In this document: piece after piece, positions 18,371 to 42,025 of the stretch
How positions within the stretch are numbered: the stretch's first letter is position 1
Layout of the letters: each line of letters begins with the position of its first letter
From: a bacterium
Lineage (GTDB): Bacteria; Patescibacteriota; Saccharimonadia; Saccharimonadales; Saccharimonadaceae
Reading direction: 5' to 3'
DNA: 64,000 bases
NCBI GenBank assembly: GCA_030429975.1
Contig: JAUIGB010000002.1
Span: 1-64,000 of the forward strand
The notes under the pieces: generated by a model
Told to the model about the DNA's origin: nothing
The model's database searches: none
What the model saw: only the letters and a program-made list of their open reading frames with translations
Translations under genes and position numbers: made by a program

Positions 18371-20569
18371 TTAACTATCTTTGTAGGGCTCTTTTATTGG
18401 TATTCGGAATCCAAACGTAGATCCTTTTCCTTCTTTCGACGTGAATATCACTGAACCACCATGTGACGTAACTATCTTTTTCACCAGATATAACCCTACC
18501 CCCGTTCCATCAGGACGCTTCTTGCGTGCGTTCTGGGCCCGATAGAATTTTGTAAATAGAGCTTCCTGTTCCTCCTTTGGAATACCTATGCCATCATCGT
18601 TAACCTTGAACACAGCCTCTTTGTCCAAATAGTCTAACGTGACCGTTACCTTGCCTCCAGGGCGCGAATAATAAATAGCATTATCCAGGTAGTTCATTAC
18701 CACCTGTTGAATCTTTGCGGAGTCCAATAATATATGCCTCTTGCTAACGACACCGTCAAAAGATAATTTAACCTTACGCTCGGCAGCGATGGGGTGAACG
18801 CTCGCCACCATTTGTTCGATAACTCGGTTCAAGTCAGTCGGCGAAAGCTCTATAGTAAATTTGTTCGTTTGCAAGCGAGAAACAGACAAAAAGTCACCAA
18901 TCAAATGAACCATCCTTTCGCTGCTGGCAAAGGCCTGCTCTAACACTTGGCGTTGTTGGGTGTTTATTTTTCCGGTATCACCTTCTAGGACCATGCTAAG
19001 ATACCCTTTTATACTCGTTAATGGGGTTCGTAGCTGATGACTTGCCAAACTAACGAACTCGTCCTTTGCTTTGTCGAGCTTTTTTAGTTCTTGATTACTG
19101 CGACGAAGGCGTTTCGTGGCGCTGTCGACTCGTGATTGTAGCGTATCGTTAAAATGCTGAATCTCTTCAAATCTTTGAGAGTTGAGTATTGCAAGCGCCA
19201 GCTCATCGGTGGCAGTAGTGAGTAACTGTAAATCCTTTTCATTGTACTGCGTGCCATTTTGCTTATCGCCCAGGAACAGCGCACCTATGTGTTCGCGCTG
19301 GACAACAAATTGCAATAGCATAGACACGTCGGCTTTACGAATTCTTTGCTGAGCACCAGTCTCGCTGAGCACTTGACTGTCATGCGCGTCTATCACTCTT
19401 GGCAATCTGTCGAGCAACGTACCAACCACTTCCAGCTGAAGCTTCCGTTGATGCGGAGTTGGCGGCTGAGGCCCGCTGGTATAGTGTCGAATCTTGCCCT
19501 CGTCGTCGACTATATATGCACTTATGTATGACGGTGCCAGGCTTTCATGCAACACGTCCAGAGACCGACGGACTAGCTTTTCTAGCTGTAGCTCTTCGCT
19601 AGTGACCTCTGTAATATCCGCCAAACTTTCTTTGATATCATAATCATCCCTATAAAAGAGTTTGTACGTCAGCTGATCGAAAAACTTCTTGATAGGCGGA
19701 TAGGTAATCGTAAAGAACAACGCAAGTAAAACATATGTCAGCAGCGTGGCTCTCTGGTTATTGTGGCCGAAGAAAACATTGGTCACCGTGAACACGATGA
19801 TTGCGTAACTCGCGACCATAGTCGCGAGTAATAGTAGGTAAGCCGTAGACCTGGCTAACGCGGCACGAAGATCAAATAAGCCTTGGCCAATGATCGCGTA
19901 GAACATGGCCACGACAAACAGTAGCGTAAACGGCGGACCGGCCCAAACGTAGCCATAATCCCCCCAAAATGGAAGCAATATGTTGAACCAAAATCCAAAA
20001 CCTAGAGCCACCGCTAGCCCGGCAATCATCGTTCGTGTCTGAGCGGCTATCTTATGCTGTTTATCGCGGATAGCCTTGCGATATCCCAACATAAACAACG
20101 TCATGGTAATAGCAATTACCAACCCAAAGAAAGCTACATACACAAAATATAGTGGGGTATTCAGGGTTACCGAGTTATGATCACCGCCCAGATTGACAGA
20201 CTCTATCATGCCATTCGGCAACAATGTAATAACCGCGATGACACCGACAACCAGCGCCAATAATGCCTTCAGTTTTAGTGCGATTTTACGCCTGTAGGGT
20301 AGTAAATGCGCCAGTATTACTAATAACACGCCTATCATCGCGCCATCCAAGTAGTAAACTTTTACTACCGCCGTCGTAAATGCCAGATCACTGGTTTGGG
20401 TGATAAACAAGAGGAGTCCGGCCGGCCATATAACACATAGCGTCGCCAACGCTATAATCACCCATCTAACCAGCGCGTGCCTGCGCGAGCTAAGGAGCAA
20501 TAAAATCAAGCTAATTTGAGCAACTATCGTAACAATCAGAATGATTTGTTCGAACGCTGCGCTAATCAT
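18371..20569 (-). CDS. Sensor histidine kinase, N-terminal multi-TM (7TM type) + GAF + HisKA/HATPase
   Basis: LASHQLRTPLTSIKGYL H-box; GTGVGLYLVKKIV; FGFRIP. Confidence 0.93.
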   Translation of the reverse strand: MISAAFEQIILIVTIVAQISLILLLLSSRRHALVRWVIIALATLCVIWPAGLLLFITQTSDLAFTTAVVKVYYLDGAMIGVLLVILAHLLPYRRKIALKLKALLALVVGVIAVITLLPNGMIESVNLGGDHNSVTLNTPLYFVYVAFFGLVIAITMTLFMLGYRKAIRDKQHKIAAQTRTMIAGLAVALGFGFWFNILLPFWGDYGYVWAGPPFTLLFVVAMFYAIIGQGLFDLRAALARSTAYLLLLATMVASYAIIVFTVTNVFFGHNNQRATLLTYVLLALFFTITYPPIKKFFDQLTYKLFYRDDYDIKESLADITEVTSEELQLEKLVRRSLDVLHESLAPSYISAYIVDDEGKIRHYTSGPQPPTPHQRKLQLEVVGTLLDRLPRVIDAHDSQVLSETGAQQRIRKADVSMLLQFVVQREHIGALFLGDKQNGTQYNEKDLQLLTTATDELALAILNSQRFEEIQHFNDTLQSRVDSATKRLRRSNQELKKLDKAKDEFVSLASHQLRTPLTSIKGYLSMVLEGDTGKINTQQRQVLEQAFASSERMVHLIGDFLSVSRLQTNKFTIELSPTDLNRVIEQMVASVHPIAAERKVKLSFDGVVSKRHILLDSAKIQQVVMNYLDNAIYYSRPGGKVTVTLDYLDKEAVFKVNDDGIGIPKEEQEALFTKFYRAQNARKKRPDGTGVGLYLVKKIVTSHGGSVIFTSKEGKGSTFGFRIPIKEPYKDS

Positions 20570-20592: not shown

Positions 20593-21582
20593 TTATCCTT
20601 CTATTATATACACGCCATATACGCCATCTTCAGGTAGTATCAGCTTTTGCGACTTTTTTTGAATCTTTGCCTTGGTCATCAAGTGCGAGACTTGTTTTAC
20701 GCTACGAGGAATCACGCCGGGCCATCCCATGCCACGCTTATGGACGTCTAGCTGTTTTCGGGTGTCTAACATATTCGTAAAGATAAAAACACCACCAGAC
20801 TTTAGTGATTTCCTGATTGCAATAAGCACTTCAACTGCCCTTTCGTCATCTAAATATTCAAAGAAGCCCATGGCATCCACTACGTCTGGTCGAGTATCAG
20901 CCATTAATCTCTCGAGAACGCCTTCACGAGTCAAGTCCAGTTTTGACGTAAAGATATCTTCGTCGTCTATGTCATATGTTTTTGATAACTGTCGAGCAAA
21001 GCGTAGCGCCTCACCATCCATATCACATAAATAATACCTTTTGTTCGCGGGAATAATCCTCGCGGCGTCAAACACGGGCTGGCCTGTACCTGCAGCTATC
21101 GATAGCCACGTAATATCCTTTTTTTCGCCAGTGTAATAGTGCGCGTACCATGCCATGGCATATGCTCTCGATCGTAGACCAATCGCATCGATAGAATGTC
21201 GAAAAAGATTTTTCGTGATTATGTCTATTTTTTTGCCGCTATATAGGCGTTTGTGATCTGGATTATGCACGGAGTACGTTGCAAATCCCCCGGGCATATA
21301 GGCCGTCCATGCCCTAAATGCGGGAGGGAAATAAACGATACGCCGAACATGATTTTTTGGATGGTCAAGGGTTAAGTGTGGACGTTTGCGTAAGTACCTA
21401 TCCAAGGTACGAGTAAACATAGAAACAGCACGTCTAGAAATATGATGTGGCCACGCATGAAACCTGTCCTTGGCCTCCACCCTATACGTGTCTATGCCCT
21501 GAATCTCGTCATTCTTTACTATTGATACCGAAAAAAACGGAGTTGTAATATCATTTATCGGTCTTTTTACCATGCCCCTCAT
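20593..21582 (-). CDS. Class I SAM-dependent methyltransferase
   Basis: WLSIAAGTGQPVFDAA, YYLCDMDGEALRFA, DVVDAMGFFEYLDD. Confidence 0.8.
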   Translation of the reverse strand: MRGMVKRPINDITTPFFSVSIVKNDEIQGIDTYRVEAKDRFHAWPHHISRRAVSMFTRTLDRYLRKRPHLTLDHPKNHVRRIVYFPPAFRAWTAYMPGGFATYSVHNPDHKRLYSGKKIDIITKNLFRHSIDAIGLRSRAYAMAWYAHYYTGEKKDITWLSIAAGTGQPVFDAARIIPANKRYYLCDMDGEALRFARQLSKTYDIDDEDIFTSKLDLTREGVLERLMADTRPDVVDAMGFFEYLDDERAVEVLIAIRKSLKSGGVFIFTNMLDTRKQLDVHKRGMGWPGVIPRSVKQVSHLMTKAKIQKKSQKLILPEDGVYGVYIIEG

Positions 21583-23737
21583 CCTCTGCTATCGGTATGC
21601 TGAATCCGAATGTTGAGCCCCTGCCTTCTCGTGAGCTAAATATGATTTTGCCCCCATGCTCTTCGACGACGCGCCTTGCCATATATATGCCCACACCGGT
21701 GCCGTCGGGACGTTGTTTACGGGCATTTTTTGCTCGAAAGAACTTATGGAACAGTTTGGACTGTTCATCTTCCGGAACGCCTATTCCAGTGTCCACAACG
21801 GTAAAGGCGACATTACGTTTAACCTTCTCCAAATTGATAATGACAGTGCTTTTTGGATGCGAATAATATATTGCGTTATCGATAAAGTTCATAACGACTT
21901 GTTGAATCTTTGATTTGTCAGCCATTAACGGCAACTCTTGTTTAGTTATGTTTATACGAAACTTTATATTTCGCGTTTTTGCGATTAGCTCTAGGTCAGA
22001 CACCTCTTGCTTTACAAGTTCCCTGAAATCCACCAGCTCTTTGTCTATCAAAAACTTTCCCGATTGAAGCCTTGATACATTCAAAAAGTCCGCAATCAAC
22101 CTAACCATTCGCTCGCTACTGTTAAATGCTTCTAGCATCAATTTCTGCTGACGCGGTGTTACTTTTCCGGCATCGCCGTCAAGTAACATGCTCAGATAAC
22201 CCTTTACACTGGTCAACGGCGTTCGTAGCTGATGACTTGCCATACTGATGAACTCGTCTTTGATTTCATCTAGATGTTTCAATTGATTGTTTGAGGCGCG
22301 GAGTTCTTTGGTGGCGACATCTATACGTTGTTGCAGCGTTGCGTTGAGTTCTTTAATTTCATGGAGCGTCAGTGCATTTTGAATGGCAATGACCAGCTCG
22401 CTACTTATGGCTGTCAGAACATTTAGGTCGTGTTTATTATATCTACCCCCCTGATGATCACCTAGTAATAAATAACCGAGTATTTGATCTTCGTGCCACA
22501 GTGGCATAACCAGACCTATGCGATGACTCAACAACATGCGCCGTAATGCGTTATCACTTTCGGGCAAGGTGTCAGTCAAAAATATTTTTTGCCTATTATT
22601 CTCGACATAGTCGTCCAAAGTACGAGCATCGTGAACGGGCATTTTTGTATGCCCATAAGTCCCGGCCGACATGTGGTGATTTATACGATTTTTATAGTAT
22701 ATGAAAAATAGAGCTTGCTCAGATTTGAAAGTGGAGGCAATCTGCTTTGAGGCTCTTTCCAAAAGGCCTCTCAAGTCGGTTGTCGACGAGAGTAGATTAC
22801 TGAGCGCACCAAAGAAAGCTTCGCTATCGTAACTGTCACGATAAAAAATACTATTGGTAACCCTATCAAAGAAACGCTTGATGTACTGGAATATAAACGC
22901 CAGACCCAAGGCTATCACGACGTTCACAGGGCTAAGGCTGATTGACGAAGTGGTCTCCCCCTTTAGCAATAGGACCGAGAAGAAATAGGCAAGAAAGTAG
23001 TATATCAGCGCAAGACTACCAAGCGACAGAACATATGCAGCACTCCTGACAGCCGCGAGTTTTATGTCAAACAACCGGTGCCTGATAATCGCGTACGTAC
23101 TAGTTGCGACGAATATTAGCGTTGCGACTGGCCCGACTTCCACCAGGCTGTAATTGCCCATAATGGGCAGTATGAGGTTGCAAAATATGCCAACTATAGC
23201 GGCCAGGACTAGCCCCATGAGAACAATCGCGATCTTGTTCCGTTCCATACCCGATGACCTCGCCCTAGCCAACAACAAGGCGACGATTGCGATGATCATA
23301 AAACTAAAAATATATGCGCCATAAATAATGAGGGGTATCACGTTAGTCGCAATCGTATCGTCCACGACTTCGGTCGCCAATACCCCCGGAATAACAGAAG
23401 TGACCGAAACCGCCAGACCGATACCATAGATTAACCCGTTCTTTATCCTTCTCGGGCTTATATTCGCCATGCCAAAGGAATATTGGAGGAAAAATAATGC
23501 TATCAGACCAGCTGCGCCATAACTAAACAGTGCCGATACATACTGCACTATTTGATCATCAGACAGTGCAAAAATAAGATTAGTTAATATCCAAGTCGTT
23601 GCAGCTAGGGATAAGGCAAAGAAAGACCTGTTGAGTAACTGTTTCGGGTTGCGCATGAAAACAATGGCGCCCAGCGAAATAATGGCCACCATCGAAACCC
23701 CTAATACCAAAATAGTGAAAATAGTCTCTGTATCCAC
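21551..23737 (-). CDS. Sensor histidine kinase, N-terminal multi-TM (7TM type) + GAF + HisKA/HATPase
   Basis: MASHQLRTPLTSVKGYL; GTGVGIYMARRVV; same architecture as the 18371 kinase. Confidence 0.93.
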   Translation of the reverse strand: MDTETIFTILVLGVSMVAIISLGAIVFMRNPKQLLNRSFFALSLAATTWILTNLIFALSDDQIVQYVSALFSYGAAGLIALFFLQYSFGMANISPRRIKNGLIYGIGLAVSVTSVIPGVLATEVVDDTIATNVIPLIIYGAYIFSFMIIAIVALLLARARSSGMERNKIAIVLMGLVLAAIVGIFCNLILPIMGNYSLVEVGPVATLIFVATSTYAIIRHRLFDIKLAAVRSAAYVLSLGSLALIYYFLAYFFSVLLLKGETTSSISLSPVNVVIALGLAFIFQYIKRFFDRVTNSIFYRDSYDSEAFFGALSNLLSSTTDLRGLLERASKQIASTFKSEQALFFIYYKNRINHHMSAGTYGHTKMPVHDARTLDDYVENNRQKIFLTDTLPESDNALRRMLLSHRIGLVMPLWHEDQILGYLLLGDHQGGRYNKHDLNVLTAISSELVIAIQNALTLHEIKELNATLQQRIDVATKELRASNNQLKHLDEIKDEFISMASHQLRTPLTSVKGYLSMLLDGDAGKVTPRQQKLMLEAFNSSERMVRLIADFLNVSRLQSGKFLIDKELVDFRELVKQEVSDLELIAKTRNIKFRINITKQELPLMADKSKIQQVVMNFIDNAIYYSHPKSTVIINLEKVKRNVAFTVVDTGIGVPEDEQSKLFHKFFRAKNARKQRPDGTGVGIYMARRVVEEHGGKIIFSSREGRGSTFGFSIPIAEDEGHGKKTDK

Positions 23738-23747
23738 CTATCGTGGA

Positions 23748-24602
23748 TTATAAAGCATTAGCTTTTAGCAGTCCATTGGTAACGTGCTTGTTTGAAAATT
23801 CAAACTCGTCCGCATGCGTCCTCAAGTAGCGCAATCCCTCTTCGGGTTTTACGACGCAAAAATATGATTTGCCTTGATCGTCCCTATTAATTTTGCCCTT
23901 GGCTATGACATCAAATTGGATACCCGTGTGCTCAAGTGCCATCACTAATAATTTCGTGCCGTTGAATATCCAACGGATATCGTCCCTTTGTTCCTTTACT
24001 TCCTCGGGGATCTCATTGCGCATCATGCCGTAGCCTACGGCAAACAGCTCCAGCATCCCACCGACCAGACGATCTGGCTCGACGGCTCGGTCAACTGGTG
24101 TGGCAAAACGGGTTAAATCCCAGAGCTTCCCGTCTTTCGCAATCTCATTCAAATATTCCATAGTTCGTCCGTCGTCATGCCGTTGCGCTTGGGCCTTCAT
24201 CCAATCTCCAGCTCCGTTGAACATAGACCAGCTGAGTGATTCTTCGACGGAACCTATACGACTCAAGCGAAGGCTTGCAATTGCTTCGGGCGTATCCCAT
24301 TCGGACAACAGAAGGTTATACGTCTCGTCCATCACGTCGTATTGATCAACTTCTAGACGTTCACGCGCCCAATCTGGACTATCCAGCCATTGAAGGGCGA
24401 ACGGCAGTTCGTCAACAGTATTAGTTCTCCAATTCTGCGAGTCTACGAATTTCACGCGGAATGGCAAAACCCTTTCAAACACCTCCCGATTATACGGACC
24501 TTTAGATACATCAACATCTCCTACTCCTGATCGAGCCGGGACTTCAAAGTTTTGTTCGCTTTCGGGATTCATTGATACCGTCATCTCATTGCTAATTATC
24601 AT
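23748..24602 (-). CDS. LuxI/autoinducer-synthase-like GNAT-fold protein (candidate)
   Basis: ERLEVDQYDVMDETYNLLL...ASLRLSRIG...SWSMF...LWDLTRFATPVDR matches the LuxI-family spacing (D45, D48, R70, F84, E/D101, R104). Confidence 0.55.
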   Translation of the reverse strand: MIISNEMTVSMNPESEQNFEVPARSGVGDVDVSKGPYNREVFERVLPFRVKFVDSQNWRTNTVDELPFALQWLDSPDWARERLEVDQYDVMDETYNLLLSEWDTPEAIASLRLSRIGSVEESLSWSMFNGAGDWMKAQAQRHDDGRTMEYLNEIAKDGKLWDLTRFATPVDRAVEPDRLVGGMLELFAVGYGMMRNEIPEEVKEQRDDIRWIFNGTKLLVMALEHTGIQFDVIAKGKINRDDQGKSYFCVVKPEEGLRYLRTHADEFEFSNKHVTNGLLKANAL

Positions 24603-24757
24603 TTACTCTTCTTTATTATACAATAATACCTATTAATATTCAAGTATACGCTCGTTGCTTTATCTGATTAATCTTACACTAGTTCGGCCCAATCAGGATA
24701 GAGTTGGGCAAAATATAAAGCACCGGGCGACCCTGCCTAGCGACCCGTGAGGACTTT

Positions 24758-24798
24758 ATGCCCGATGGATTACGCCATACGCGCAACCCATCGGGCAT
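24758..24798. terminator. Hairpin downstream of the 24821 gene
   Basis: ATGCCCGATGG...CCATCGGGCAT. Confidence 0.7.
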
Positions 24799-24820
24799 AT
24801 CGGCAAGTCAGATTCGGGGC

Positions 24821-25243: not shown

Positions 25244-26719
25244 TTGGCGCGACATAACGAAAAGATGATGGACAAAAAATCTAGATTCAAGCCTAGTCAA
25301 ACAGAGTTTTTGAAACCCCTCAAATCACAAGAAAAAAGAGGTTTATTGAAAAAAAGTGGTATCACCTTGGCGAGTGCCGCAGCCGCTGGTTTCATTCTAT
25401 CCGGTTCCGAATACAACGCGCCCAAGGATTTAAACGATATCGTTAATATTGGACTCACCCCGACTCCAGAGGTTAGCACGTCTGGAACAAAGAGTATGAT
25501 TGAGGCCAATGATGGTCTGCGCGACTACAGTCCAATCGTGCTTGGTCTTGGTTTGGCCGGCATGGGTATATACGAATATCGCCGCCGTCGCCAAGATAAC
25601 CGCCTGCATCACATGCATAACTTTACCCATCAAGGTAGCCACTGGGTGCGTATCGCGCTAGCCGGCGGAATCATGGGGACAATTGCTTCAGCATCAGGCC
25701 TTGGCGATACGGCGGCAGATAATGCATCTGAGCCTATCCAACAAGCAGCGGCTCTATACGGTGCCGAGCAGGCAACCACTCCTGTGTTCACAAGTTACGA
25801 AGGTGCCCTAGGAAACCATATGCCCGTCGATTACGCCAACACGGCAAGCGCTGTCAGTGAAGCAGGCGGTACGCCGATGCCCCTCATCTTTGAATTAGGA
25901 AAGGTCGAAGATCCGACTAGCGTCAACAATCCGACTTCAGGACCAATTGTAGGCGTGCCCAACGACTCATTGAAACAAGCCTTCAACACCGATATGCCCG
26001 CCATAGACAACTGTGATGACATGTCCGTTATCGTGGGTGAACAGTTAGGAGTGAACGCTGGTGATACTGTCAAAATCAATGGACGCCCAGCGACCGTCGC
26101 CGATACTATCGACGTAAAGCCAGGTCTAGGACGCGTTATGGCACTCGGTTCGGTCGAGCAATTTGATAAATGCGTATATCCTGATTCATTGATGCTAATC
26201 GCAAATGGTCTTGTTTTGCCACAACAAAAAACCTTGGACGCAGTCAATAGCCAGCTAGACACCGCATACGTAGCGCGCTCATTCGAGGAGCTTATCGAAG
26301 AAAATCAAGAATTTTGGGACGGAAGCGTAAAGCCCTCGCAAATGAATTTGATTTTCCAGCAACTGGGTCTTGGCGCTGCCGGTATAGCGATTTTGCAGGG
26401 TATGCAGATAGCGAATCGTCGCAAAAAACTAGCCGTACGTTTAAGTCGGGACGTACCAAAATCGACGCTAACGACCGCCGAATTTCTGGCATCCGAACGT
26501 GATGTTATACGATCAATTCCAATAGGTCTTGGCGTTTACACATTGTTTACGTATATGATTAACTCCACCCAGCATGGAATGAGCCAGAGTATTGATATTC
26601 CATCAATCGCCAGTGGCTACTCCGTTACCGCTATCGCAGCTGGCGCAACATCGGCGGCCGCCACCTATATGATGACAAGACGTATTAATGTCCATGAAGA
26701 ACTAGGGAGCAGCGCGTAA
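25244..26719 (+). CDS. MacB/FtsX-like ABC transporter membrane subunit
   Basis: TTG start with AAAGGAGACATATC SD; periplasmic GDTVKINGRPATVADTIDVKPG; TM segments; followed by an ATPase. Confidence 0.65.
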   Translation: MARHNEKMMDKKSRFKPSQTEFLKPLKSQEKRGLLKKSGITLASAAAAGFILSGSEYNAPKDLNDIVNIGLTPTPEVSTSGTKSMIEANDGLRDYSPIVLGLGLAGMGIYEYRRRRQDNRLHHMHNFTHQGSHWVRIALAGGIMGTIASASGLGDTAADNASEPIQQAAALYGAEQATTPVFTSYEGALGNHMPVDYANTASAVSEAGGTPMPLIFELGKVEDPTSVNNPTSGPIVGVPNDSLKQAFNTDMPAIDNCDDMSVIVGEQLGVNAGDTVKINGRPATVADTIDVKPGLGRVMALGSVEQFDKCVYPDSLMLIANGLVLPQQKTLDAVNSQLDTAYVARSFEELIEENQEFWDGSVKPSQMNLIFQQLGLGAAGIAILQGMQIANRRKKLAVRLSRDVPKSTLTTAEFLASERDVIRSIPIGLGVYTLFTYMINSTQHGMSQSIDIPSIASGYSVTAIAAGATSAAATYMMTRRINVHEELGSSA

Positions 26720-27447
26720 TGAGAAAAAGATTGGAATACCCATCTAGCGAGTATGATTTGGATATACGCGTCAAGGATCTATCTATAATGAGCAGAATAG
26801 GCGAAAAAATTCTCGATAATGTATCCGTATTCATACCACAAGGAACCCATGCTGTTATTAAGGGCCCTTCTGGAGCAGGCAAGACTTTTCTCGCGACCGC
26901 CATGTGTGATGTGCGCAATAACCAGCTGAATTATACCGGTGATGTCAGCTACGAGATGAGAAGTAAAAAAGACCCAGAAAACAGATTTACTTTACCACCT
27001 CAATATCCATTGAAATATCGTAACGTTAGTTTCATATCACAAAAGCCATTCTTCGATAGTGACAATACAGTCGAACAGGAAGTTATGCTGGATGCAGGAT
27101 TAAAAGGCATAAAGGACATCGACAGGGATCGACTTGGATCTGTCTATGAGATATTAGGTATCAGCCACCTCATACACCGAAGAATGCTCGATTTATCTGG
27201 CGGGCAGCAGCAGCGTGTGCCGATTGCCGCGGGGCTTGTTATTAATCCAAACGTGGTTGTTACCGATGAGGTAACGGCAAACTTAGATGTAGAATCAAAA
27301 GTCAAAACCCACGAAGCGCTGAGCGAGCTGTCCAGAGAGTTCGGCATCACAGTACTGTCTATAACCCATGACGATCTCACGGCCCCACGCGAGATTCGTA
27401 TGCTAGATCGCCGGATTGTTGGCGATACGCATCCTAGCGATAATTAG
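26719..27447 (+). CDS. ABC transporter ATP-binding protein
   Basis: GPSGAGKTF Walker A; LSGGQQQRVPIA; VVTDEVTANLD. Confidence 0.93.
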   Translation: MRKRLEYPSSEYDLDIRVKDLSIMSRIGEKILDNVSVFIPQGTHAVIKGPSGAGKTFLATAMCDVRNNQLNYTGDVSYEMRSKKDPENRFTLPPQYPLKYRNVSFISQKPFFDSDNTVEQEVMLDAGLKGIKDIDRDRLGSVYEILGISHLIHRRMLDLSGGQQQRVPIAAGLVINPNVVVTDEVTANLDVESKVKTHEALSELSREFGITVLSITHDDLTAPREIRMLDRRIVGDTHPSDN

Positions 27448-27498: not shown

Positions 27499-27867
27499 AT
27501 GACAAAAATTGCTATTATCGAAGACGATTCCGTTATCAATCAAATGTATCGAATGAAGTTCGAAGCCGATGGCTTTGAAGTTCAAGTGGCAGACAACGGC
27601 AAATCCGGCATAACCATGGTCGAGTCATTCAAACCTGACATGATTTTGATGGACCTACAGATGCCTGAAATGGGTGGCGAAGAGGCCCTAGAACACATCC
27701 GATCACAGTCATGGGGCAAGACCATACCGGTAATTATCCTGACGAATCTAGGGATCGAAGAATCTCCGAAAAAACTCAAAGACCTAGGTATACAAAATTA
27801 CATAGTCAAGGCAGAATTAACACCTAGCGAGGTGGTCGAGCGCGTCAAAGAAGCGTTAGGCCTGTAG
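27499..27867 (+). CDS. Single-domain response regulator (CheY-like)
   Basis: KIAIIEDDSVI, MILMDLQMPEMGGEE, VIILTN, no output domain. Confidence 0.93.
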   Translation: MTKIAIIEDDSVINQMYRMKFEADGFEVQVADNGKSGITMVESFKPDMILMDLQMPEMGGEEALEHIRSQSWGKTIPVIILTNLGIEESPKKLKDLGIQNYIVKAELTPSEVVERVKEALGL

Positions 27868-27868
27868 T

Positions 27869-28681
27869 TTAATTCTTTTTTATAGTCATCTGCGCTGCAC
27901 GAATGACGTTGTCAAATAGCGCGGCTACGGTCAGCGGTCCGACTCCGCCTTTTTCGGGAGTAATGGAAACATCATCTCTGGCGCGTAACTCAGATGATAC
28001 GTCGCCGACTATTTTTCCGTGCTCTGCAGCCGTACCAGCATCAACTATTACCGCGCCTGTCTTTACGTCATCCGGCCCAATCAACCTAGGTACACCCGTG
28101 GCGGTGACTATTACGTCGAATTGATATAGTTGCGAATTCATCTCTTCGCTATCTTCGTCAAAGACGGTCACGTCATATCCGCTTGCCCGCCATAGTCGCG
28201 ACAACGGCGAACCCACTAGCCTACCGTTTCCAACGATAGCGATCTTTTTGGTCGAAAGTTCTACGCCATATCCTGCTAGCAACCAAATTATCGCTAGCGG
28301 TGTTGCCGGATCCAAGATCGCACCCTCACCCAAACCGTCTACGTCTTTTTCGGGGGCAACAGAGTCCACCGCTTGTTGCGTGCCCGCCTTATCCGCGAGA
28401 GGCAACTGAATGATAATTCCATGCGTAGAACCGTCTTTATTGAGTCTGTCTACTACACCAGCTATATCTGATTGGTCTATCTTGTAAACTTCAACGTCAA
28501 TCAAAATATCCTCGCCATATGCGCGCTTCAGTCGAACATAGGAATCAATCACCGAGCTATCAATAGTCTGGACAATTGCAAGCTTGGGATATACATGATG
28601 CGCCTGACGCAGAGCTCGCACCTGCTTCGCTTGGCGCTCTTTTATAAATCCGACTAGCTCTTTACCGTTTAGTTCTTTCAT
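27869..28681 (-). CDS. folD: Methylenetetrahydrofolate dehydrogenase/cyclohydrolase
   Basis: GIIIQLPLADK, PEKDVDGLG, IVGNGRLVGSPLSRL. Confidence 0.93.
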   Translation of the reverse strand: MKELNGKELVGFIKERQAKQVRALRQAHHVYPKLAIVQTIDSSVIDSYVRLKRAYGEDILIDVEVYKIDQSDIAGVVDRLNKDGSTHGIIIQLPLADKAGTQQAVDSVAPEKDVDGLGEGAILDPATPLAIIWLLAGYGVELSTKKIAIVGNGRLVGSPLSRLWRASGYDVTVFDEDSEEMNSQLYQFDVIVTATGVPRLIGPDDVKTGAVIVDAGTAAEHGKIVGDVSSELRARDDVSITPEKGGVGPLTVAALFDNVIRAAQMTIKKN

Positions 28682-29721: not shown

Positions 29722-30475
29722 ATTACTGTCTAGGGGCTTCACCTTAGTAGAGTTGGTCGTATCAATCACGATTGCATCCCTACTATTTATCATCTTGTTT
29801 ATCCCGCTAGACAGCTTTTATGAATCAAATCGTCAATCTCTAAACAATATAGTGCAAACAGGTGAAGTTCGAAGTACTCTGCGCGCTCTAGAGAGTGAAA
29901 TCGCTTTGGCGATCAGTTTTCACAATACCAACACTGGCATCGTCACGGACCCGTCTGGGTCCAATGGCAACCCCAGTAGCCCGACCCAGTGGACATGGAC
30001 TGGATACGGTGGCGAAAGAGTCCTCATAACTAGCAACTACGCCACTACGGAATTCGCCTCTACTGACAATGATGGGTCGCGAACATTGGTGTACGGTCCT
30101 GACTGTGAAACAGGGATTGTGAATGCTACAGTTTATTTTGTCAAAGGCGGCTCGCTGTATCGCCGCACGCTAGCAAACACAGGGGCGTCCACATGTAGTG
30201 GATACTCTATGGCGCAGCGAACGACTTGTGAAGTTGGCGTTACAGCCAGTCCATGCAATTCGGCACCTAGAGACGCGAAATTACTGGATAACGTATCGGA
30301 TTTTTCCGTGAATTACTATGAACATCCCAATAGTACATCGACATATCCAAGCCAGTACTCAAACACGAGCGCACCCTCTAGTTCGCAAACTGTCGTGATT
30401 TCAATTACCGCGGGGGCTGGCACTGCTCAAGAGACAGGAACAATTAGAATAACTAGACTAAACGGGAGTACATGA
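29702..30475 (+). CDS. Pseudopilin (GspJ/PilW-like); start trimmed to MLRSSSKLL
   Basis: SRGFTLVELVVSITIASLLFII. Confidence 0.8.
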   Translation: MLRSSSKLLSRGFTLVELVVSITIASLLFIILFIPLDSFYESNRQSLNNIVQTGEVRSTLRALESEIALAISFHNTNTGIVTDPSGSNGNPSSPTQWTWTGYGGERVLITSNYATTEFASTDNDGSRTLVYGPDCETGIVNATVYFVKGGSLYRRTLANTGASTCSGYSMAQRTTCEVGVTASPCNSAPRDAKLLDNVSDFSVNYYEHPNSTSTYPSQYSNTSAPSSSQTVVISITAGAGTAQETGTIRITRLNGST

Positions 30476-33447
30476 TGAGGAAAATGATGCAAAAAGGATT
30501 TATACTACCAGCGACCATCCTGCTAGGATTGGGCGTCACTATTATGTCTACTACCTTTTTGGAGTTCACTTCTAACACGTCAGTTGTTCTAAATAGCCGG
30601 AATTTCGACGCGCTTGCAAATGACGCCGCGCGCGCAGGCATCGTCTACGCGAACAGTTGTATCGAAGCGAGCGCGGACCCTCTTAGCTGGACTACATTAA
30701 CACCTGCTACGAACTGTTCCGGGGGTGGGGCAGCCGGTTCTGGACCATATATAGTCGAAAACTCGGACTATAGGACTACGTTTACCGTTCCTACCGCAAC
30801 ACTGTCTAATAACCTGTTGACTGTCGTGTCAACTGGGACCGTTCAGAAATTGGATGGAAACGGAAACCCCGTAGAAACCATAACGTCTACTGTCAAAAAT
30901 ACATTACCCGGCTCTACGCCCCCGTGGCCGGTCGCAACAGGGTTACCCCTCCATGAGATAAAAAATAACGAAACAGATTGTGCTATCGGAAACGGAGAAA
31001 TGTACTGCTGGGGTGATAATGGAAGCAATCAGGCTGGCGTATCCAGCCCAGGGGACCTAGGTTGGCCCAGGAGGGTCCAAAATGCCATTGCCGGAAAGAC
31101 AGTAACATACATAAGTGTTGCAAATAGGAATGCATGCGCGGTTGCGGACGGACTGCCATACTGCTGGGGTAGTGACGGAAACCAACAACTAGGTCAAAGC
31201 GCATGGTCTAGTATTGACTACCCCACGAACGATATACCTAGAACATCATCCGGACCATTAGATGGATATTACGTTCCAGAGGTACAGATATCAGACAGCA
31301 ATAACCCGGCGATCATATGGCCCTTTGGAATAGCAGCTCCTCATTCAATGGCGCTACGCGAAGACGGTACTGTTCATGTTTGGGGTGACGGAGGATTTCG
31401 TCAAAATGGTGATGGAGGTTGCTTCCTAGGATGGTGTGCCTACCCTAGCTATTCAACGCCGACGACATTTAATGGTTTCAAAGACACTACCTCACCATTC
31501 TCTGGTAAAAAGGCCGAGAGAATCGGCACTAGCTCGCACGACTCATGCTTCGCGGCTATAGGTCGCATGTACTGTGCTGGAGTAGAGGTGCCCCTTCCCA
31601 TTCAATGCAATACTGCTTGGTTCATGTCCGTTAATAATCCATTGGTAATAATCTTTAACTTATGTACACCGACCTTTGACGATGCCTACGACATGTCCGC
31701 TAAAACTCAATGGTTAACTGGGCACACTTTGAACAATAAGTTTATAGACATGGATACGTTCGAAGTAACCACGAATGTTGGTTGTATGATGGCGCAAAAT
31801 GACTTCTACTGTGTAGGTAACGGGCCTGCCGTTGGGGCACTATGGTCAGGGTCCTGGTCCCCACCATGGATAGAACTAGCCAATTCCGATGTTACTTCAC
31901 ACGACAACGGCGACAACCCAGATTCGGCCAGTTTTGATGGTATCTACTGCATTATCGACTTCGGAGTAGCAAAATGCCAGGGCTCATCTTGGCAAGGTGG
32001 CGGCGGTATATGGTCATGGAACCCTATTACGTCCACTGGATTTACCGGAAAGACTCCTACAAAAATTGCTGCCGGACAACAGCATGGATGCCTAATAGCC
32101 AACGGACAGCTGTACTGCTGGGGTAACGGACACGAAGGTGTATTAGCAAATGGCAACATATCATTATTTGGAAATTCACGCACTAGCGCGCAGCTTAGTG
32201 GTCAGGGCGGATCTTATCCGATAGGAACAGACGAAGGCACATATGCCGCCGACGGTCCAATTAGTGTTGGTGACGGCCACTCCTGCGGTACCGCAAACGG
32301 TAATTTATTCTGCTGGGGCAGGAATACGTATGGTCAATTAGGTATCGGGACGACATCAGAACAGTACAGTCCACTAGCGCCACCTACGACAGTCGGTATC
32401 TATGTTCGCGATGTCAGCGTAGGCGCTAACCATACTTGCGCGATAGCCGATGGTCAATTGTACTGCTGGGGAAGAAACAATAACGGTCAATTGGGCCTTG
32501 GTAACACAACCGACTACTCTACCCCTCAATTAGTTTCAGCGTTCGCGGGCATGCGCGTACACAACGTCAGCGCAGGAGAAAATCACACCTGCGCCGTAGT
32601 CGACGGCCAAGCATATTGTTGGGGTCTGAACTCCAACCTGCAACTGGGCGATGGCACGCTGACAACAAGAACGTCGCCGACGCTTGTGGATGGAAACAGC
32701 AGTATACTCGTTGGGAAAAACGTACGTTACATTACAGCTGGATATACTCACACATGCGCTACCGCAAATGGTGACCTGTATTGCTGGGGCAATAACGCCA
32801 ACGGACGAACCGGACTAAACACTACTAGCGGTAACTCGCATCCGACATTAGTAACCGGAGGAACTGCTGGATCTCCAATGGTAACCGCTCCGAGCCCGGA
32901 TCTACGACCATTAGTGACATCCATATCAGCAGGTAGCAACTTCACATGCGCAGTTATAAACTCCAAGGTGAGCTGTTTCGGTGCTAATTCCAACGGACAG
33001 CTAGGTGACGGTACTACCACCCAAAGGTTGGTGCCTACAGCTAGCGCCAACAGTTATTTCGCCACGAAAGTCACGGCCGGTGGCACGCATGCATGCGCTT
33101 TACTACACGGTAACAATTCAAAGATAAACGGAAACCTGTGGTGCTGGGGCAACGCAAGCAACGGGCGGGTAGGAAATGGCTCGTCATCTGGAAATGTCAC
33201 TTCTCCGACAGTACTAAACGGTGGTGATATGCCGGAAACAAACTATGGCCAGGCAGAGATAAAGAGCGCAACTGCAGTGTCAGCGGGAGCCTCATCTACT
33301 TGTGGCGTAGTAAAAGGCACTATCATGTGTTGGGGTAACGGAGCAAACGGTCGCCTAGGTGATGGCACCACGACTAGTAGGAATGCCCCGAATATCACCG
33401 ACGATTACCACTTTTTCTCATCTTACGAAAGCGGGCCTATTTACTAG
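30472..33447 (+). CDS. PilX/GspK-like minor pilin fused to RCC1-repeat domain, 991 aa
   Basis: KGFILPATILLGLGVTIMSTTFLEF N-term; many HTCAVADGQLYCWGxNxxGQLG repeats. Confidence 0.8.
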   Translation: MMRKMMQKGFILPATILLGLGVTIMSTTFLEFTSNTSVVLNSRNFDALANDAARAGIVYANSCIEASADPLSWTTLTPATNCSGGGAAGSGPYIVENSDYRTTFTVPTATLSNNLLTVVSTGTVQKLDGNGNPVETITSTVKNTLPGSTPPWPVATGLPLHEIKNNETDCAIGNGEMYCWGDNGSNQAGVSSPGDLGWPRRVQNAIAGKTVTYISVANRNACAVADGLPYCWGSDGNQQLGQSAWSSIDYPTNDIPRTSSGPLDGYYVPEVQISDSNNPAIIWPFGIAAPHSMALREDGTVHVWGDGGFRQNGDGGCFLGWCAYPSYSTPTTFNGFKDTTSPFSGKKAERIGTSSHDSCFAAIGRMYCAGVEVPLPIQCNTAWFMSVNNPLVIIFNLCTPTFDDAYDMSAKTQWLTGHTLNNKFIDMDTFEVTTNVGCMMAQNDFYCVGNGPAVGALWSGSWSPPWIELANSDVTSHDNGDNPDSASFDGIYCIIDFGVAKCQGSSWQGGGGIWSWNPITSTGFTGKTPTKIAAGQQHGCLIANGQLYCWGNGHEGVLANGNISLFGNSRTSAQLSGQGGSYPIGTDEGTYAADGPISVGDGHSCGTANGNLFCWGRNTYGQLGIGTTSEQYSPLAPPTTVGIYVRDVSVGANHTCAIADGQLYCWGRNNNGQLGLGNTTDYSTPQLVSAFAGMRVHNVSAGENHTCAVVDGQAYCWGLNSNLQLGDGTLTTRTSPTLVDGNSSILVGKNVRYITAGYTHTCATANGDLYCWGNNANGRTGLNTTSGNSHPTLVTGGTAGSPMVTAPSPDLRPLVTSISAGSNFTCAVINSKVSCFGANSNGQLGDGTTTQRLVPTASANSYFATKVTAGGTHACALLHGNNSKINGNLWCWGNASNGRVGNGSSSGNVTSPTVLNGGDMPETNYGQAEIKSATAVSAGASSTCGVVKGTIMCWGNGANGRLGDGTTTSRNAPNITDDYHFFSSYESGPIY

Positions 33448-40306: not shown

Positions 40307-42025
40307 ATGCTCGCTCTAAAAGTAGTCGTATTTTCTGCATTTGTCGCTGTTTTTTTGTCAGTCGCAACGGCTAACGCACAGGGAGATTCTCAAGAAGCTA
40401 CTGATGTTTCCGTCGGCAATGACACCACTTGTGCCATCAAAAATGCGCGCGCTTACTGCTGGGGTTCAAATGGGGACGGGCGATTAGGCATAGGAAGATG
40501 GGATATTTTTTCTAGCAAAAAGCCATATCCAGTAGCCACAAACACATCTAAAAAGTCAGCGGATGGCGGAAACTGCATAGAAAGAAGCTGGATAGGAACA
40601 TGTTCTAAATATGATAGAAATCCTTCCCCTTCTATTCCCGCCAGTGACATGGGCGAGATTGACGTTACCAAAATATCCGTGGGTTCAACGCACGTGTGCG
40701 CGGTGGCTGACGCGCAAGTATATTGCTGGGGTGATAACAGATACGGTCAGTTGGGTAACAAATCATACCGTGATTCATTAGTCCCCGTAGCCGTGCATGT
40801 GGATAGTGGTAGCCTACTATCACAGAAAGAAATGATAGACGTCACCGCGGGATTTGGCTTTACGTGCGCCCTCGCCAGCGACTACACGGTATCCTGTTGG
40901 GGCCGTAATGATCACGGTCAATTAGGTAACGGTACTTTGAAAAAATCTAACGTACCCGTATCCGTTTCATATGACAATAAGTCCGATAAGTTATGTACGA
41001 GCAAGAGCTTTTTCGGTAGGTGTACTGCAACTGTCAATTTAAAACCTAGCGCACTTGTTGGTAAAAAAGTGGTTAGCCTAGCAAGAATACACGGTGATAC
41101 TGCTACGATGTGCGTACTCACCGAAGAAGGACGCGCGGTCTGCTGGGGGGCTAATCATGCCGGTCAAGTAGGAAATGGAGCTGGAGTTCCTTATGGGTCT
41201 GATTCAGGTCGCGGTGAGGATCGTCATACGAAATCCCATAAATGCGAAGAAACTAGTAAGGCGGCGTTTAAGCAGGCAGGCGTTAACTTGTATAGTTATA
41301 GTAATAATGACTCTCTTCGACCTGCAAACGTAAGGGGTGATTACACATTCAAGGACCTTACGATAACATCTAAACAACACGGGGATAGCGTATACGTTGA
41401 CGTTCAGAAGGCGTTGGTGGACAGAGATAGTCCTGGTACCGTATGGATAGATGGAGCATTCTATACGTACGTTATGGCTACAGGTAAAGATGGTAAGACG
41501 TATCATTGGGGTGGTAATCATGTCGTCGATATACATTGGAAATGTGTCAGTAACGGCAAAGCTTACTACGGTGACTGGACAAAAACGGAACTAAGAGTAG
41601 CTTACTCTATAACCGGCGTTAATAGACCTACGGCAACAACTATAACCTCGACGCTATCGTCTGGAAACATAAAAGGATTGAGCTGTAAGGTAAACGGCGG
41701 TAATAACGCACACTGCGATGCTAGGGGTACTAGCAATCTTACTGACGGCAGAACTGGAAGCAACTACCAAAGAACATGCAAAACGGAAACTGGCGTATTT
41801 GGCATAAAGTATACAAAATGCGACCCAGCGCCAACCGGCTACCAAAAGGTGTATACCGGGGGTTGGCTGGGCGGACGCGCCATTTCAGCGATCGACACAA
41901 GCATGAATGGCACGACGTGTGTTGTCGCAAACGATAGAATCGGATGCTGGGGCGTCAATAATAGAGGGCAGTTGGGTGTCGACGATACTAACGACCGGGG
42001 CGTTCCGACCGCAGTGAGGTTATAA
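40307..42025 (+). CDS. Secreted RCC1-repeat protein, 572 aa
   Basis: Signal peptide ...VATANAQG; TTCAIKNARAYCWGSNGDGRLG and HVCAVADAQVYCWGDNRYGQLG repeats. Confidence 0.85.
   Translation: MLALKVVVFSAFVAVFLSVATANAQGDSQEATDVSVGNDTTCAIKNARAYCWGSNGDGRLGIGRWDIFSSKKPYPVATNTSKKSADGGNCIERSWIGTCSKYDRNPSPSIPASDMGEIDVTKISVGSTHVCAVADAQVYCWGDNRYGQLGNKSYRDSLVPVAVHVDSGSLLSQKEMIDVTAGFGFTCALASDYTVSCWGRNDHGQLGNGTLKKSNVPVSVSYDNKSDKLCTSKSFFGRCTATVNLKPSALVGKKVVSLARIHGDTATMCVLTEEGRAVCWGANHAGQVGNGAGVPYGSDSGRGEDRHTKSHKCEETSKAAFKQAGVNLYSYSNNDSLRPANVRGDYTFKDLTITSKQHGDSVYVDVQKALVDRDSPGTVWIDGAFYTYVMATGKDGKTYHWGGNHVVDIHWKCVSNGKAYYGDWTKTELRVAYSITGVNRPTATTITSTLSSGNIKGLSCKVNGGNNAHCDARGTSNLTDGRTGSNYQRTCKTETGVFGIKYTKCDPAPTGYQKVYTGGWLGGRAISAIDTSMNGTTCVVANDRIGCWGVNNRGQLGVDDTNDRGVPTAVRL

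Follow-up and report, generated by a model that had tools for sequence, protein, structure and literature searches.

The LuxI-like gene and its neighbours

The window, meaning the whole 64,000-nucleotide stretch of DNA that was analysed, is one contig of a 1.02-Mb genome that is 99% complete. Within it lies an intact reading frame of 284 codons on the minus strand, starting with an ATG at position 24602, in a region where the plus strand is rich in stop codons. This is exactly the frame of the 284-aa protein, here termed P0001, for which a preliminary description had proposed a LuxI-type residue pattern without giving the strand. The genes and features around it are as follows.

18371..20569, minus strand: second histidine kinase, with a 7TM-like N-terminus, paired with the methyltransferase (Pfam, the 7TM match being below cut-off; sensor similarity)
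20593..21582, minus strand: methyltransferase-domain protein, the enzyme of a second cassette, overlapping the end of a kinase gene (Pfam; same arrangement in G039, locus L077, and G058, locus L079)
21551..23737, minus strand: histidine kinase with HisKA_7TM, GAF, HisKA and HATPase_c domains, the proposed receptor (Pfam; spacing; sensor-half similarity)
23748..24602, minus strand: P0001, 284 aa, synthase with the acyltransferase fold of the LuxI superfamily (translation, family alignment, AlphaFold2 model, Foldseek, hhalign)
24615..24643, minus strand: match to a sigma-70-like promoter, TTGAAT-17-TATAAT, 13 bp before the synthase gene begins (identified by consensus alone)
25244..26719, plus strand: putative membrane partner of the ABC ATPase, 491 aa (hydrophobic stretches identified by eye; a 505-aa protein in the same place in L106)
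26719..27447, plus strand: ABC transporter ATPase, between regulator and synthase (Pfam ABC_tran, 1.2e-19; same place in G048, locus L106)
27499..27867, plus strand: CheY-type response regulator, the conserved anchor of the locus (Pfam; present in 47 of the 61 genomes of the taxonomic family, E<=1e-30)
27869..28681, minus strand: folD, the conserved neighbour of the regulator (gene name by sequence reading; census match)

The spacing is operon-like, with the first kinase starting 10 bp past the synthase stop codon and the second kinase 23 bp after the methyltransferase gene. No LuxR-type regulator is found next to the synthase, whose neighbours are the 7TM histidine kinase and the CheY-type regulator. 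The latter shares 67-77% identity with regulators from records that mostly carry the name Candidatus Saccharibacteria or Saccharimonadia, and the genome is taken to be Saccharibacteria on that basis. P0001 alone matches no Pfam or NCBIfam model at E<=10. The preliminary description had called the protein otherwise unannotated and had not noticed the kinase and regulator context.

The ABC ATPase and its putative membrane partner are inserted between regulator and synthase in two genomes (positions 25244-27447 of the window, and L106:1599-3898), and by inference the pair is a possible exporter, with the 491-aa putative membrane protein giving no Pfam match. Between the synthase and the ABC genes, in sequence that no gene was assigned to, lies a 19-nt inverted repeat (window 24757-24799) that is 89% complementary and has a 5-nt loop.

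A divergent family with an AHL synthase-like signature

P0001 and 11 relatives, 20-33% identical to it, make up a family of 12 proteins from Saccharibacteria. Of the relatives, six come from the same taxonomic family, others from elsewhere in the class, and one more (L113) from a later census. The relatives were obtained solely through whole-genome searches; a pattern scan of genome contigs with P0001 returned no relative. A seventh cross-genome match (L007) proved spurious, as its 616-aa frame encodes an unrelated membrane protein. The family is rare and, as sampled, confined to the class, since a sampled phylum-wide search gave no member outside the window's own genome.

The residues of P0001 that correspond to the LuxI signature are the following.

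24429..24458, minus strand: N-terminal signature R49...F52...W58 (LuxI R25/F29/W35, TraI numbering), with R49 and W58 invariant in the family alignment and paired to TraI by profile alignment
24336..24347, minus strand: D86-Q-Y-D89 motif (LuxI D46..D49), both Asp residues invariant in family and reference alignments
24267..24269, minus strand: R112 (LuxI R70), invariant in family and reference alignments
24108..24119, minus strand: D162-L-T-R165 (LuxI E101-x-x-R104, with Asp for Glu), Asp in 12/12 family members and Glu in 12/12 references

In an alignment of 11 members, 20-32% identical to P0001, ten columns are invariant (R49, W58, D86, D89, T94, R112, M127, D162, T164, and W211) and two more are nearly so (Y88 and R165). 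Six of the ten (R49, W58, D86, D89, R112, and D162) are LuxI signature positions, and the twelfth member keeps all seven, R165 included. An aromatic residue is also found near the LuxI F position, shifted by one residue. The pattern exceeds what chance would give. With 10 of 254 columns invariant, the hypergeometric probability that these cover six out of seven specified positions is ~4e-9, a figure that is somewhat flattering, as conserved columns are preferentially paired by profile alignment. For comparison, 12 annotated AHL synthases taken from plasmid records share an invariant R25, W35, E44, D46, D49, R70, E101, R104, L127, and G159 (TraI numbering). At the catalytic Glu position, all 12 family members have Asp, whereas all 12 reference AHL synthases have Glu, and on present alignments the Asp is class-specific.

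These results confirm the observation first made. The peptides quoted at the time are all present, namely VDQYD (D86..D89), ASLRLSRIG (R112), SWSMF, and LWDLTRF (D162, R165), the reading of an Asp in the E101 position was correct, and the signature residues follow the LuxI order, with six positions invariant and R165 nearly so, all paired to LuxI by hhalign. Coverage of the signature was incomplete, however, in that the D-x-x-D, Arg, and Asp/Arg parts had been recognised but the N-terminal R49..F52..W58 segment had been overlooked, as had an insertion of ~20 residues between W58 and D86 of P0001 that is largely missing from its relatives.

Profile and structural comparisons

Comparison with PF00765, the profile search by which the LuxI assignment was to be checked, is negative: no match at E<=10 is obtained for P0001 or anywhere in its genome, and seven family members likewise gave none. 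The FeeM model PF21926 likewise does not match P0001, with one of seven relatives matching at 0.0029, and a phmmer search of P0001 against PDB sequences gave nothing meaningful.

Homology is evident when the family is compared as a profile. Alignment by hhalign of the family with the 12 annotated AHL synthases gives E=2.8e-7, while unrelated control families from the same loci give 0.03-0.8, and the profiles pair R49 with R25, W58 with W35, D86 with D46, D89 with D49, R112 with R70, D162 with E101, and R165 with R104. Against PDB sequences, the family profile matches TofI (E=4.9e-5) and RpaI (4.8e-3), as well as BjaI and EsaI, and AHL synthases are the sole related enzymes found in this search.

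An AlphaFold2 model of P0001, built with the first seven family sequences as input, has a mean pLDDT of 76 and a pTM of 0.79. The 12 best Foldseek matches to it in the PDB are all AHL synthases (BjaI, TofI, LasI, RpaI, EsaI, and MesI; E values of 3e-6 to 8e-4, probability 1.00), headed by the CoA-dependent BjaI (E=3.1e-6), and are followed by FeeM and then, from rank 14, by generic GNATs. The structural comparison suggested in the preliminary description thus comes out in its favour. The assignment would have been refuted had neither profiles nor structure resembled autoinducer synthases or GNAT acyltransferases; both kinds of similarity are present. The overall superposition is loose (TM 0.4-0.6, rmsd 5-8 Å), in part because of the insertion and of low-confidence loops.

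Together, these comparisons support P0001 as a relative of AHL synthases at the superfamily level. Because the PF00765 check is negative for the single protein, it is better regarded as a divergent outgroup than as a textbook LuxI, and is not a member of the curated PF00765 family. The case also shows that standard profile libraries miss one branch of the AHL synthase superfamily.

One kinase-regulator address, many enzymes

A 7TM-GAF histidine kinase directly follows the synthase gene in 12/12 family members, including those from other families of the class, and a CheY-type regulator and folD normally adjoin the synthase-kinase pair. A census anchored on the regulator (47/61 genomes of the taxonomic family, E<=1e-30), for which 40 further loci were fetched, found this gene order to be widely conserved around a variable enzyme. 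The common architecture is folD(+), regulator(-), enzyme(+), and 7TM kinase(+). The regulator could be oriented in 39 of the fetched loci, and 35 of these have a kinase on the expected side. The slot is occupied by the LuxI-like family, by PF00765-positive LuxI-like proteins paired with or fused to a ThiF/E1-like protein, by AMP-ligase-like proteins with ThiF, by pyruvoyl or PLP amino-acid decarboxylases, by methyltransferases, by FeeM-like proteins, and by some unassigned proteins; for the slot enzymes of L076, L080, L087, and L090, not even hhalign gave an assignment.

Several of these arrangements deserve description. The LuxI-like protein and the ThiF/E1-like adenylating enzyme are fused in L020, L025, L026, and L027, giving a protein of ~550 aa, and separate in L018, L019, L021, L022, and L028; most of these pairs are found at the same regulator-kinase address. 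AMP-ligase-like and ThiF genes share the slot in L082, L083, L085, and L086. The slot also includes an aromatic amino acid lyase in L085 and L086, and three of the four loci have a nitroreductase-like gene ahead of the kinase. In the case of L078, L087, L093, and L095, the slot holds a pyruvoyl arginine decarboxylase or a PLP decarboxylase of the ornithine/arginine type, suggesting polyamine-derived products, and partner proteins of 409-415 aa in L078, L093, and L095 belong to no family.

Loci without an enzyme were also found. In a named set of 16 loci that partly overlaps the census, five lack an enzyme, and all five of their kinases are short (427-449 aa vs ~720 aa). A short kinase in place of the long 7TM-GAF form accompanies the absence of an enzyme in L128, L129, L130, L133, and L134, as well as in L102 from the earlier census, which also contains a single locus (L098) where a long kinase has no enzyme beside it. 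L023 and L024, from the same class, show a LuxI-like enzyme in other surroundings: next after the PF00765-like protein comes a membrane methyltransferase-like gene, and the fetched stretch contains no kinase.

Co-variation of enzyme and sensor

Across the full-length kinases, mean identity is 19% for the sensor half and 59% for the kinase half. Sensor identity is higher between loci of the same enzyme class than between other pairs (0.285 vs 0.184; p=2e-4 by label permutation once kinase and folD identity are regressed out), whereas identity of the kinase half hardly tracks enzyme class (0.610 vs 0.591, p=0.09); the corresponding values for folD are 0.568 and 0.561. The p value stays at 2e-4 when the other LuxI-linked kinases are added (42 loci), when a tight cluster of ligase loci is removed, or when the set is dereplicated by folD. 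The limits of this test are that enzyme classes were assigned by the authors, that samples are modest, and that phylogeny was controlled by regression and not by a tree model.

Individual loci illustrate the same trend. For instance, the ten sensors nearest to that of the P0001-linked kinase, among 41, are exactly the ten other LuxI-linked ones compared, three of which come from other families of the class. The locus of G024 (L076), from the same genus, has a kinase half 74% identical to that of the P0001-linked kinase, yet the two sensors share just 25% identity and the enzymes differ. The sensor of the second window kinase is closest to those of methyltransferase-linked kinases, as predicted if the window carries two cassettes. 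In the named set, all five non-duplicate loci with an assignable enzyme that lay outside the co-variation test have their nearest sensor in the matching class, L126 being matched via its ThiF gene. Genetic linkage and co-diversification of the synthase and its putative receptor kinase are both borne out.

Proposed mechanism and alternatives

In LuxI enzymes, the Arg, Trp, and Asp positions of the signature bind S-adenosylmethionine (SAM), and the acidic residue supports acyl transfer. With these residues conserved, P0001 is probably a divergent enzyme of the AHL synthase fold whose product, an N-acyl-homoserine lactone or a closely related molecule, would be read by the adjacent kinase. P0001 would join an acyl group from an acyl thioester, CoA being more probable than acyl carrier protein (ACP), to SAM and release the lactone or a close relative, a reaction and a signal identity that are inferred; the product is unproven, there being no biochemical evidence. 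Export is likewise an inference, after which detection would fall to the 7TM N-terminus of the kinase whose gene starts 10 bp beyond the synthase stop. The kinase would then signal to the CheY-type regulator beside folD, although phosphotransfer between the two, and a function in sensing population density, are also only inferred.

The gene content of the genome bears on the substrates. A metK homologue is present, and SAM can therefore be made. No acyl carrier protein was found above cut-off, a level that 11/14 control genomes did reach, and the PP-binding match elsewhere in the genome is a 15-bit one below the cut-off; a CoA-linked or scavenged acyl donor is for this reason more likely. Searches with E. 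coli queries found no homologue of FabF or of MTA/SAH nucleosidase, but these were run without a positive control. Counted against the proposal are this absence of FabF and of MTA/SAH nucleosidase, the lack of a family model for P0001, the Asp in place of Glu, the loose superposition, and the enzyme-less L098 kinase.

The structural ranking points to one competing activity, that of a FeeM-type N-acyl amino acid synthase, which has the same fold but would transfer the acyl group to a free amino acid without using SAM, and whose product may still signal to the kinase. FeeM is the next structural match after the AHL synthases, the single weak match (0.0029) of a family member is to FeeM, and other enzymes in the same slot score to it. 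AHL synthases outrank it in Foldseek, however, and alone represent the related enzymes in the profile-to-PDB search. Moreover, the N-terminal Arg and Trp that form part of the SAM pocket of AHL synthases are invariant in the family, and a FeeM-type activity is considered unlikely, if still worth keeping in mind.

The general GNAT fold, and the generic GNATs that appear from rank 14, would also be compatible with an enzyme whose acylation target is a protein (the neighbouring kinase or regulator, for example) or a component of the cell surface, without any diffusible signal. Such a role is improbable, as the best matches are consistently AHL synthases, as it is the membrane sensor and not the kinase domain that co-varies with the enzyme, and as relatives carry decarboxylases, AMP-ligase-like proteins, ThiF, and aromatic lyases in the same slot, an assortment suited to small-molecule synthesis. 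It is harder still to credit that P0001 is a decayed or inactive relative of AHL synthases retained as a binding or regulatory protein. The change from Glu to Asp, the insertion near the active site, and invisibility to Pfam could be taken that way, but homologues that have diverged widely keep the signature residues without exception, every one of these homologues has an intact frame, and the Asp is a fixed feature of the class, not a sporadic change.

Relation to known signalling systems

With LuxI-type AHL synthases (PF00765; BjaI, TofI, LasI, RpaI, EsaI, and TraI), P0001 shares the fold, the order of the signature (R, aromatic, W, D..D, R, acidic, R), and homology at the profile level. It differs from them in not being recognised by PF00765, in having Asp for the catalytic Glu, and in the insertion between W58 and D86; its partner is a membrane kinase, whereas that of LuxI is LuxR. 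The FeeM N-acyl amino acid synthases (PF21926) belong to the same fold group and give weak matches in the wider slot, but rank under the AHL synthases for the P0001 family.

Pairs of a synthase and a membrane receptor kinase also occur outside the LuxI family: neither LuxM nor AinS is homologous to LuxI, and CqsA is one of the PLP enzymes. A membrane histidine kinase receptor is found with the synthase in LuxM/LuxN, AinS/AinR, CqsA/CqsS, and LqsA/LqsS (CqsS, PMC3285556; LuxN, PMC5394107). Unlike these systems, the Saccharibacteria locus brings many enzyme types to one conserved kinase-regulator module.

The basic idea of a LuxI homologue beside a kinase in CPR bacteria is already known from a 2020 study in mSystems (PMC7567580), according to which HMM searches of CPR genomes found 36 LuxI homologues, 18 of them adjoining a sensory kinase, and these were proposed to be complete quorum-sensing systems. 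The P0001 locus embodies the same idea. In the main text of that study, no mention was found of the Asp-type clade, the folD-regulator address, the swapping of enzyme types, or sensor co-variation. In a literature search whose scope left out most subscription journals and preprints, no account was found of the Asp-type clade or of a slot with joint change of enzyme and sensor, nor anything on the pairing of LuxI-like and ThiF proteins at this address.

A broader reading, for and against which the case seems evenly balanced, is that this is a general locus for chemical language in Saccharibacteria, where at one address (folD, regulator, slot, kinase) each lineage inserts its own small-molecule synthase along with the 7TM sensor half that fits it, without any change in the output through kinase and regulator. 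The same even judgement extends jointly to all the enzyme types that this reading would cover: LuxI-like, LuxI-like with ThiF, AMP-ligase-like with ThiF (with or without an aromatic ammonia lyase), decarboxylase, and methyltransferase. If true, episymbionts would exchange dialect-like signals, several of them of chemical types unknown as quorum-sensing signals. As reduced bacteria, Saccharibacteria are believed to live for the most part on hosts, and the locus offers a concrete candidate system of chemical signalling for the open question of how attachment, growth, or exit from the host is timed. Both halves can be named for each genome, namely the enzyme that would make the signal and the membrane domain expected to read it. 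Because co-variation provides a rule that predicts enzyme-receptor pairs without knowledge of the chemistry, products and receptors could be assayed gene pair by gene pair in ordinary laboratory hosts.

Elsewhere in the window, two predicted secreted or surface proteins (30472-33447 and 40307-42025) are rich in 'CWGxNxxGQLG'-like repeats that resemble those of the RCC1 type, the first of them coming after pilin-like genes.
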